Origin: Halomicrobium urmianum
Lineage (GTDB): Archaea > Halobacteriota > Halobacteria > Halobacteriales > Haloarculaceae
Direction of reading: 5' to 3'
DNA length: 64,000 bases
Assembly (NCBI RefSeq): GCF_020217425.1
Contig: NZ_CP084090.1
Coordinates: 2,046,001-2,110,000 of the forward strand
Part shown: piece by piece, positions 1,202 through 58,466 of the stretch
Position numbering within the stretch: the first letter of the stretch is position 1
Layout of the letters: each line of letters opens with the position of its first letter
The notes under the pieces: generated by a model
Database searches by the model: none
What the model saw: only the letters and a program-made list of their open reading frames with translations
Told to the model about the DNA's origin: nothing
Made by a program: the position numbers and the translations under genes

Positions 1202-1255
1202 TCGTTCGAGAGAGTCTCGTGATCACGAAAGACGCCGGAGGCGTCTTTCGAACGA
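1202..1255. repeat. Tandem-hairpin module, copy A2
   Basis: It begins TCGTTCGAGAGAG and ends TCTTTCGAACGA. It has a short first hairpin (GAGAG/CTC), linker GTGATCACG, and a second hairpin CGAAAGACGCC-GGA-GGCGTCTTTCG; the whole is enclosed by GTCGTTCG/CGAACGAC, giving a three-way-junction shape. It lies in the same larger palindromic element as copy A1. Confidence 0.65.
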
Positions 1256-12855: not shown

Positions 12856-12885
12856 GTGAACCGCCTCGGGGTCAAGCCCCGAGGC
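12856..12885. repeat. Solitary hairpin, uninterrupted ('empty') site for tandem-hairpin module
   Basis: The sequence GTGAACCGCCTCGGGGTC, AAG, CCCCGAGGC folds into a perfect stem (GCCTCGGGG/CCCCGAGGC). I recall similar hairpins near the ends of haloarchaeal IS200/IS605 (TnpB) elements, so this may be a decayed end of one. The same hairpin occurs at 58194-58278, but there it is split by a 55-nt insertion. Confidence 0.6.
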
Positions 12886-13486
12886 ACTCGGCCTGCTCCG
12901 GCTGTAGACATTGAACGCACTGACGCACTCGAAGGGCCCCCGGAGCGCCCTTCGATGTGTAAATAGTTTCAATTTCTACTATAGTCGTCGACAACGTCCT
13001 CCCGAAATTGTCGGCGGGCTTGTGGAGCTCCCGTTTGAGCAGTTCGTTGCGCACGAGATCGAGCCCCAGCTCCGCTAACGCCTCGATCGACTCTTCGAGT
13101 TCCTGCCGCGTGGACGTCGCTATTTCGAGCTCGAGGTTCCGGTGATGGGTCAACAGCTCTCGGACAGCGACGACCCCGTGAACTTCGAGTGCGTCCTCGG
13201 CGAGTTGGCTGCGACTGTCCATCGGGGCCGTTGCGGTGACGAGCATGTGATGGTCGAGTCCGGCCTTCTCGTAGTTGAGGATCGGTTGATAGGCAGTGAT
13301 GATATCTTTCTCTTCGAGCTTGTTGATGCGGTTCCCGACGGTAGTCGACGAGACGCCCACCCTCTCACCGATCCCCGCCGTCGTGTTGTTGCGAGCGTCT
13401 TGCTGGAGCAGATACAGGATGCCCTGATCAGTCGGATCGAGGTCGACCATCGGAACAGGGACAGGTACGCCCTCCACGACCAACAA
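12872..13486 (-). CDS. Lrp/AsnC-family regulator with repeat-derived C-terminus
   Basis: A 204-residue protein. Residues about 14-60 are an AsnC-type winged helix (LDPTDQGILYLLQQDARNNTTAGIGERVGVSSTTVGNRINKLEEKDII), followed by a ligand-binding-like region. The last ~37 residues (from IVEIETIYTS onward) are read straight through a MITE-like element (12902-12984), and the stop codon lies in an older hairpin remnant (12872-12874). The original C-terminus has probably been replaced. The start could also be the ATG at 13449 (MVDLDPTDQ), which fits Lrp proteins better. Confidence 0.8.
   Translation of the reverse strand: MLVVEGVPVPVPMVDLDPTDQGILYLLQQDARNNTTAGIGERVGVSSTTVGNRINKLEEKDIITAYQPILNYEKAGLDHHMLVTATAPMDSRSQLAEDALEVHGVVAVRELLTHHRNLELEIATSTRQELEESIEALAELGLDLVRNELLKRELHKPADNFGRTLSTTIVEIETIYTSKGAPGALRVRQCVQCLQPEQAECLGA
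12902..12984 (-). mobile_element. MITE-like palindromic element, copy 1
   Basis: One of three related elements (others at 30030-30115 and about 57289-57367). The intact end CAATTTCTACTATAG is at 12970-12984; the opposite end is degraded (CTGTAGACATTGAACG). The central hairpin is CGAAGGGC/GCCCTTCG, whereas copy 2 has CGAGGGGC/GCCCCTCG, a paired A-T for G-C change. No transposase is encoded. The element forms the 3' end of the Lrp gene. Confidence 0.75.
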
Positions 13487-41282: not shown

Positions 41283-42625
41283 TTACGACTCGCCAGAGGC
41301 AATATGCCCGTCACGGTGGACGGTACTCGGGTCTGTGCGCTGTTCTTTGGGACTTTCGTGAGGGTGTGGTTTCCCCGACCAGTCGTGGTCGTCCCACTCG
41401 AACCGCACGGGCCGTGCCATCGGCCTGACCTCTTTGCTCGTGTGCCGCTTCAGGAACGTTGCTGACGCTGTCAGGTCGGCGTGGCCTTCAAACCCACACG
41501 GACAGGTGAGCGTGTCCTGCTGCCGCGTCGTTCGGTCTGTGCCTCCGCACTGCGGGCATTCTTGGCTGGTCCAGGCTTCCGACCGAACTTCGACCGAGAT
41601 ACCGTATTCTTCGGCGGTACAGACGAGTCGCTCGGTGAATTGCTTGAACGCCCAGAAGTTGTGGGTCTTGGCGTTGGTGTCAACCGACCAGTGCGCCTCC
41701 AGTACATCGGTCAACCCACCGATGTACACCGTACCACGCCGACCTCGTACAATCGTTCCAGTAGGTCACGACATAGCGCTTCTTGGGCGTGGTCGCGGCG
41801 ACGGGTACGCTTGCGGTATAGTCGCTTGATACGCTTGCTACTGTACTGATCGTCCTCGAGTTTAGACTGTAACCGGGCAATCTCTCGGGTCGTCTCGCGG
41901 AAGCGATTGAACAACTCGCGGCCCTCGTAGAGATATTGCTGGCCGGTCGTGGTGGTACAGGCGACGAGATTGTTCGCACCAACGTCCAGAGCGGCCGTCT
42001 CGTCGGCCAGTGGAGTCGCCCGTGCATCCTCAGAAACAGTCACGGGCTGTGAAGCTCGGACGGTGCTTTCAGTCTCGTCGTACCATAGGTCTAATCGGCC
42101 CTGCTTCTCGTAGTCGGGCCAATTCGGGCGGCCAGTGATTTCGAGTCGGAGTCGCCCGGTATGGTCGTATCGGTCTTTCAACTCGCTCCCGACCAGTATC
42201 TCAAGCCGAGAGCGATCTCCCCATTCGACGGTGTAGGCGTCGTTGCGAATGACGGTCTTGAGCTGGCGTCCCTCGTCTTCGTTACCACGGAAGCCCGGCG
42301 GTTCGGGGTGTTCCGTGACCGACGTGTTCGAGTCGTCGTGATACTGCTCTTTCAGCCGGAAGAACCCGTGCCACGCTTCACTGTTCTTCCGGATCACTTG
42401 TTGAGCAGTAGATGCGCCGAGAACGCCTTTGTACTGACCTTCGAGCCGGCCTGTATCGGCGTCCCACACGTCCTTGTCCTCGAAGCCGTCTTCGCCGTTA
42501 TACCGCATGAGACGCTGGTAGTTGACTTCGTTCCAGAGCGCGGCGGAAGCGTCCAACAGGTCCCGTAGCAGTTGCTCTCCCGTGGTGGAGAGCGGTCGCA
42601 CGGTGAACGTGTTGGTGCGCTTCAC
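41283..42625 (-). pseudogene. tnpB: TnpB-type RNA-guided nuclease/transposase (IS200/IS605 family), frameshifted
   Basis: Two frames together make one ~447-residue TnpB: the N-terminal 304 residues (42625-41711) contain [15 protein letters not shown] (first RuvC Asp), and the C-terminal part (through 41283) contains the zinc finger CPQCGG...CPCGF and [11 protein letters not shown] (last RuvC Asp). The join is near 41730: one base is missing (GTACGGTGTACATC region), so [10 protein letters not shown] replaces the expected path into [18 protein letters not shown] start 42625 has a TATA box AGTATAAAC 26 nt upstream. Probably inactive unless the shift is bypassed. Confidence 0.88.
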
Positions 42626-58067: not shown

Positions 58068-58193
58068 CGAACCACCCCGTCTCTCGCAGCCGTCCGAATT
58101 CGGCGGGCACGAACGATCTCAGTTCTCACGAACGATCAGAACGCTCTATGCGCGTTCTCGAACGATCTCCTGGGCGAGTTCGCGCCCTCGGCG

Positions 58194-58278
58194 GTGAATC
58201 GCCTCGGGGTCAAGTGGTTCGAGAGACCTATGGTCTCTCGTCATCCCGGAAGACGAAGTCTTCCGGCGACCCCGAGGC
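58194..58278. repeat. Hairpin interrupted by tandem-hairpin module (filled site)
   Basis: The flanking hairpin (CGCCTCGGGGTCAAG at 58200-58214 and CCCCGAGGC at 58270-58278) is the same as the uninterrupted one at 12856-12885, with one mismatch in the shared upstream part. The 55-nt insert (58215-58269) begins TGGTTCGAGAGACC and ends CTTCCGGCGA, and is a tandem-hairpin module (GAGAGACC-TAT-GGTCTCTC, then CCGGAAGAC-GAA-GTCTTCCGG). Confidence 0.7.
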
Positions 58279-58299
58279 TTCCTGCTTCGATGACGCGAC

Positions 58300-58401
58300 T
58301 TGCAGACACGGACTCAGGTCCTCCGCGAGCGCTACGCCCGCGGAGAGCTTTCCGACGACGAATTCGAACGGCGGCGCAGACAGCTCGAACGCAACGGCTG
58401 A
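58300..58401 (+). pseudogene. SHOCT-domain remnant
   Basis: A frame on the plus strand reads VLRERYARGELSDDEFERRRRQLERNG and then stops (TGA 58399-58401). This is the core of a SHOCT motif (short C-terminal oligomerisation domain), but no start or upstream domain is present; the sequence just upstream is the interrupted hairpin. Probably the surviving 3' end of a gene destroyed by these repeats. Confidence 0.6.
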
Positions 58402-58466
58402 CCGGACCGGACGTGGACTCCCGACCAGGCGACGGATGGGTCGCTCTCCGCTGTGGGCTCCGGTGA

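Follow-up and report, generated by a model that had tools for sequence, protein, structure and literature searches.

In the window (the whole 64,000-nt stretch of Halomicrobium urmianum DNA that was analysed), positions 58194-58306 are a remnant of an IS605-type element: its right end together with a tail of the tnpB coding sequence. All of the features of this remnant are read on the minus strand. The tnpB 3' coding tail (58270-58306; end family B5) reads S-A-S-R-V-I-E-A-G-S and overlaps the right-end palindrome, whose 5' arm, GCCTCGGGG, lies at 58270-58278. The rest of the loop and the 3' arm, CTTGACCCCGAGGC, lie at 58201-58214 and are followed by a terminal GATTCAC (58194-58200); GATTTAC or GGTTCAC occupies the equivalent position 3' of intact tnpB genes. 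Elsewhere in this genome, the identical palindrome is found directly 3' of the tnpB stop codon at five loci (L066, L067, L072, L082, and L084), and a shortened one follows the tnpB stop in L076, so we identify the palindrome as the right end of IS605/IS1341-type elements. Another locus (L087; window 41463-41648, minus strand) has a truncated TnpB with a 160-aa open frame and an intact right end, GCGCAGTTCACGGTGCGGAGGATGTCAT.

At 58194-58278, the palindrome is interrupted after GGGG by 55 nt (58215-58269), which sit at a G^C step in the palindrome loop, have empty homologues, and read TCG-(hairpin 1)-GGATGA-(hairpin 2)-AACCA. We will refer to these 55 nt as the unit. Hairpin 1 (58246-58266) is CCGGAAGAC-TTC-GTCTTCCGG and hairpin 2 (58220-58240) is CGAGAGACC-ATA-GGTCTCTCG; both rest on the predicted fold and on covariation. 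The linker GGATGA (58241-58246) shares its first G with hairpin 1, of which it is the final base. Whether as DNA or as RNA, the split form is predicted to fold into an outer stem that encloses the two hairpins, and the strand from 58190 to 58310 folds about 5 standard deviations below dinucleotide shuffles.

The uninterrupted ("empty") palindrome is at 12863-12885, within a 53-bp terminal-only PATE (12856-12908, minus strand) in which left-end sequence runs as far as the palindrome and is followed by a right-end tail. On the minus strand, 12856-12885 reads GCCTCGGGG^CTTGACCCCGAGGC-GGTTCAC. This layout fits the 52-bp terminal-only type of PATE described for Haloquadratum (PMC3119063). An earlier note on this DNA, made from the letters alone, had reported a hairpin that is whole at one locus and split by exactly 55 nt at 58215-58269, and we reproduced these coordinates to the base. 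The note took the two loci for the empty and filled states of one site, which they are not: 12856-12908 and 58194-58306 are different host elements with different backbones. The note's two further copies are also where it placed them, at 970-1035 and 1202-1255 (both minus strand; the latter has a TGATCA linker and ends TCG...AACGA), in a separate palindromic element at 937-1314 with 14-nt inverted ends, AACCAGAAAGCCCC.

We also noted several related features of the genomic surroundings. Large palindromic elements like the one at 937-1314 (L021, L054, L097, L125, and L135) share the AACCAGAAAGCCCC inverted ends and an inner palindrome, CTTTCAGTCCCACC, and often carry the unit. A multi-hairpin element, CACCGAAAGACTCGC...GGCATGACGAGAG...CACCTCGCTCCGCTCGGCAGGACG, is repeated in the genome as several near-copies (L010, L013, L016, L017, and L018). 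Finally, the remnant at 58194-58306 occupies the position at which a paralogous region on contig C2 (window 58095-58406 versus G000:C2:351416-352287, L012) contains about 680 bp with the start of a SHOCT-like gene, and the insertion of the remnant seems to be linked to a deletion. When we sought an orthologous empty site, six other genomes of the genus had no long match to the 58194 region.

A dispersed family of two-hairpin units

We built a covariance model (R1) from 15 copies, including the three window sites, which score 71.4, 68.5, and 49.9 bits (E = 1e-22, 1e-21, and 4e-15). The genome-wide search that the earlier note suggested turned up a dispersed family: R1 matches 45 distinct places in the same genome (with overlapping matches on both strands merged) and is present in 53 of 59 related genomes and 38 of 42 genera. 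A simple pattern agrees with this: with up to one mismatch allowed, the genome contains CGCCTCGGGGTCAAG at 20 places and the reversed control pattern at none. We also scanned the genomes of 84,980 species with an exact pattern that fixed the linker and hairpin 2 only, which gave at least 120 matches. All 80 titles among the matches listed were haloarchaeal (counting the MAG "uncultured archaeon A07HR60" as such). At the settings used, no copy was found in viral contigs and phage records. In the window, the sole Rfam match at gathering scores was a tRNA.

The unit can be summarised as G^[TCGTT-hairpin-TGATGA-hairpin-AACCA]^C. Outer tags, GTSGTT, one on each strand, flank the two hairpins and the TGATGA linker. 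Among 233 copies, the unit starts with TCGTTC, TCGTAC, or TCGTCC in 213 and ends with GAACCA in 216; it is flanked by G on the 5' side in 223 and by C on the 3' side in 225. The linker is TGATGA in 212 of the 223 copies that could be parsed. Nearly all copies are 53-66 nt long, and lengths of 54-62 nt are the commonest. Both helices covary, with stems that vary with compensation: in the R1 alignment, 94.9% of cells pair, and there are double changes in 28 cells as compared to 8.3 in shuffles. Because the copy finder demands both stems, stem-pair counts are partly circular. A less biased test comes from the exact-pattern scan, in which hairpin 1 was left free: it was found at 107 of the 117 distinct matches listed, versus 2.4% of random positions.

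There is also an extended, four-hairpin form (L308, L309, L328, and L349, and L165 of the same genome, at G000:C1:1276352-1276489), in which a second two-hairpin unit, GCG...CGAACC.TGCGAACGG...CCGTGAGCAGATGA, sits inside the TGATGA linker of the outer one. A different four-hairpin stretch, which is distinct from the unit, lies just 5' of the 3' arm of the palindrome in the right-end region L338 (genome G044).

Units are inserted cleanly at G^C

We excised the unit by script from the 233 copies and sought gapless, non-self matches with at least 80% identity over 20 nt on each side. Such an "empty" homologue was found for 115 copies; it belongs to a homologous host element at a different locus or in a different species, and is not an orthologous site. 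The cut between G and C was the best one, with 115 copies and a junction identity of 0.910; cuts shifted by 1-4 nt gave 76-110 copies and identities of 0.750-0.870. At the junction, 99 of the 115 empty homologues have G^C (the background frequency of GpC is 0.095), and there were 51 distinct empty 16-mers. Thus, the alignment of filled and empty forms fixes the ends at G^C and shows that insertion is clean, without target duplication and without loss of bases.

The boundaries of the unit are identical across unrelated hosts, and its orientation varies with the host. In the GGGG^CTTGACCCC palindrome, 57 units run in the direction of tnpB and one runs in reverse (a doubtful case that is probably spurious), while units at GGCTGTG^CCACACAG and at GTCGGG..G^CCCGAC are antiparallel to tnpB. 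As GC is self-complementary, it fits both orientations of the unit. Clean insertion in RNA-coding loops and in tnpB frames might also be expected of an archaeal intron-like insert that the splicing endonuclease cuts out of RNA at a bulge-helix-bulge. Yet the unit occurs in both orientations, and on inspection the predicted fold lacks paired 3-nt bulges around a 4-bp helix at the junctions, so we give this explanation almost no weight.

Filled and empty ends, and the direction of change

A census with a right-end pattern in the 59 genomes identified 118 distinct ends: 77 were empty, 21 were filled with the two-hairpin unit, 4 had the extended four-hairpin form, and 16 were unclassified. Both states were found together in four backbone clusters of IS605/PATE ends. 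Some filled ends are on elements with an intact tnpB, as on a Salinirubellus plasmid. In trees for three families, the states change at least 10 times, and at least 8 of these changes are forced by starred branches; these are quick, unrooted trees with some long branches. (The trees omit L001, L003, L332, and L337, which are remnants or short; L244 and L260 are represented by longer copies, L370 and L406.) The sequence of the unit was independent of the backbone (permutation p = 0.27) and of the genome (p = 0.21) across 30 filled ends with hand-assigned modules.

Filled and empty counterparts can also be paired within tnpB. Relative to L275, L481 (from Natronomonas sp. LN261) is longer by 54 nt and otherwise 96% identical over 275 nt. 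In L484, L512, and L521, the tnpB hairpin GGCTGTG-TG^G-CACAGCC contains an insertion of 54 nt and is empty in L121, and the insertion in L473 has an empty counterpart in L277. In L424, from Halegenticoccus tardaugens, 60 nt interrupt the zinc-ribbon codons of tnpB and introduce two stop codons; the empty counterpart is L288. In L461, 63 nt at the homologous codon add 21 codons in frame. The insertions in L461 and L424 hit two different types of TnpB at one shared codon of the zinc ribbon, after CxxCG.

An interrupted zinc ribbon derives from an uninterrupted one, so the units within tnpB are insertions, which is to say the derived state. This bears on the outcome that the earlier note had said would refute it, namely that the long form is ancestral and the short hairpins arose by clean deletion. 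Unrooted state trees cannot by themselves separate gain from loss. However, the empty sites lie inside tnpB frames that were intact beforehand (the unit in L424 brings stop codons into a zinc ribbon, so the gene must have been intact earlier), the empty state is in the majority (77 versus 21), and unrelated hosts show the same unit boundaries. We consider ancestry of the long form to be very improbable.

A more serious alternative, if still an unlikely one, is that a founder unit was inserted in one IS605/PATE palindrome and that the filled form then spread by gene conversion via the arms, with little or no transposition. This would account for the single position and orientation in the IS605/PATE palindrome (57 versus 1), for palindrome arms that are conserved across families, for modules whose sequence is independent of the backbone, and for the subtype that many filled ends share (TCGTACGG...GACGC). 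It does not account for the equally clean G^C junctions at several unrelated targets outside of that palindrome, where some units are in the opposite orientation to tnpB, and conversion could not place a unit into the zinc ribbon of tnpB. Alongside direct insertion of the unit, gene conversion through the palindrome arms that IS605 ends have in common probably contributes to its spread between them.

We also asked how identical units are distributed. Where a genome contains identical units, their flanks are mostly the same as well (30 identical pairs listed), and no clean case of identical units on unrelated flanks was found within a genome. In plasmid strain pairs, both members were filled wherever they could be compared. 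Genome G043 (about 49% G+C in 27 loci of 3 kb) has six identical units (L533-L538) in left-end PATE palindromes with different genomic flanks; here the host element and the unit move as a composite.

Finally, host elements could gain or lose the unit for the sake of RNA function, if it served as a domain of the guide RNA of TnpB or of some other structured RNA. The right end falls in the guide-RNA region of TnpB, and haloarchaeal omega RNAs are described as containing the right-end hairpin (PMC12558985); the compensatory changes that preserve the helices also favour this reading. Against this, copies far from any IS605 end are found in either strand, some of them in palindromic repeats and others within codons of tnpB, and TnpB-linked ends without the unit are common. 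We view a guide-RNA domain as quite improbable, and insertion of a mobile unit as the better account of these sites.

Hairpin loops are a preferred target

Among the copies that we collected, the commonest single target is the end palindrome of IS605/PATE elements (the right end, and sometimes the left end). Outside of this palindrome, we compared the hairpin context of 130 distinct sites to that of 3,826 random GpC sites. Of the 130 sites, 32 are surrounded by a stem of 6 bp or more, versus 10.6% of random GpC (Fisher exact test, p = 7e-6), and 19 by one of 7 bp or more, versus 4.0% (p = 2e-6). The enrichment in hairpin loops that the earlier note proposed to look for is therefore present. 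As a whole, the distribution of stem lengths at these sites is not shifted (Mann-Whitney p = 0.10), which makes the targeting of hairpin loops a significant preference rather than a rule. The other 98 sites are not in a tight hairpin; most sites outside of the IS605/PATE palindrome either belong to larger palindromic or repeat-rich stretches, which a measure of tight loops misses, or have no hairpin. The earlier note's inference of a very small mobile unit that enters existing hairpins is supported across the genome and across the clade, with the qualification that only about a quarter of the distinct sites outside of the IS605/PATE palindrome lie in a hairpin.

How the unit might move

We infer that the unit would move as single-stranded DNA, with each tagged hairpin as a recognition site. 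A transposase acting in trans, most likely of the HUH type, would ligate it into a G^C step exposed as single strand within a hairpin loop. Such loops could be those of the lagging strand, for instance, or of an IS605 strand that has been excised. Duplication-free insertion at a dinucleotide, hairpins at the ends, and targets in loops all point to the single-stranded chemistry of HUH enzymes, as judged from general knowledge of the IS200/IS605, REPIN, and Helitron systems.

The only named candidate for the mobilising enzyme is the TnpA of IS605 (Y1), and it is a weak one. Y1 was the sole HUH transposase found and is encoded in 32 of the 59 genomes. Genomes with Y1 have a median of 10 copies of the unit, versus 3 for genomes without (p = 0.003); among the 43 genomes that are at least 90% complete, the medians are 11 and 7 (p = 0.16), and the Spearman correlation between Y1 and copy number is 0.36 (p = 0.019). 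Nine genomes without Y1 carry 10-29 copies, and the flanks of 30 Y1 genes were not enriched for units, with one clear match (26 bits). The presence of Y1 explains copy number poorly.

IS110 was rejected as another candidate: it is missing from G000, G005, and G006, the three same-genus genomes that are richest in the unit. A search for Y2_Tnp gave no match anywhere, including in the controls, and is therefore uninformative. A hammerhead-like core (UGAUGA) in the unit was also rejected, as the preceding base and the partner strand do not fit.

Overall, we think it likely that the 55-nt piece at 58215-58269 is a copy of a haloarchaea-wide, non-autonomous mobile repeat, and with the proposed mechanism included, this is the best explanation of the data as a whole. 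If so, another mobile element is reshaping TnpB elements, in their zinc ribbons as well as in their guide-RNA regions.

Comparison to known systems

The earlier note knew of no named haloarchaeal element of this shape. There is a named class that behaves this way: the small mobile repeats SMR-A (HqIRS42/43/55) of Haloquadratum walsbyi, which are described as short and non-coding, with inverted-repeat ends unlike those of known transposons (PMC3119063). According to that description, SMR-A are about 110 bp, cause no target duplication, and prefer palindromes near the termini of IS605-type transposons and PATEs; their mobilisation was termed enigmatic (PMC3119063, 2011). The unit shares the absence of target duplication and the preference for near-terminal IS605/PATE palindromes (57 copies in GGGG^CTTGACCCC). 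It differs in length (53-66 nt versus about 110 bp) and in its ends, as SMR-A has prominent terminal inverted repeats while the GTCGTT/AACCAC repeat of the unit is short and imperfect; the comparison is with the published description of SMR-A. The G^C target, the two-hairpin anatomy, the presence in 53 of 59 genomes, and the hosts other than IS605/PATE all go beyond that description. Among the papers on haloarchaea listed in searches of the open literature, which most subscription papers lie outside, no title or abstract opening describes the unit. Our results give a sequence-level definition (ends, linker, and target dinucleotide) for a class of very small mobile DNA whose means of moving was considered enigmatic in 2011, and the question of what moves it can now be tested as G^C-specific, hairpin-preferring, duplication-free insertion.

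The unit does not resemble a PATE or another derivative of IS605, as its ends are TCG...CCA without a TTCAC/TTTAC-type terminus and its target is G^C. Nor does it resemble a classical MITE, as there is no target site duplication. Helitron and IS91-type elements have a dinucleotide or other short target, no duplication, and a hairpin near one end, and the unit is like them in its short target, in the lack of a duplication, and in having a hairpin near the end.

Another close parallel, in anatomy, is with the REPINs or BIMEs of bacteria, which are doublets of REP sequences that are moved by RAYT and reach high copy number (PMC3116915, PMC2817692, PMC3733652). Both are inverted pairs of tagged hairpins with the tags on the outside (GTSG in the unit, GTAG or GTGG in REPINs), and some REP dimers are reported to lie within palindromes, as copies of the unit do (PMC3116915, PMC2817692, PMC3733652). 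Unlike a REPIN, the unit has no conserved stem (REP); only the tags and the linker are fixed. IS200-type subclass 1.1 is given as the only Y1 subclass reported in Archaea (PMC6006769), so no RAYT is expected; we saw none next to the units, and at the 30 Y1 loci (one clear match) we found no cognate RAYT flanked by units. We tentatively suggest that the unit could be an archaeal counterpart of the REPIN that does without RAYT: a single-stranded DNA cloverleaf of about 55-60 nt that is ligated by an enzyme into loop-exposed G^C steps, that colonises and sometimes disables TnpB transposons across the haloarchaea, and whose nested copies build fractal palindromes.
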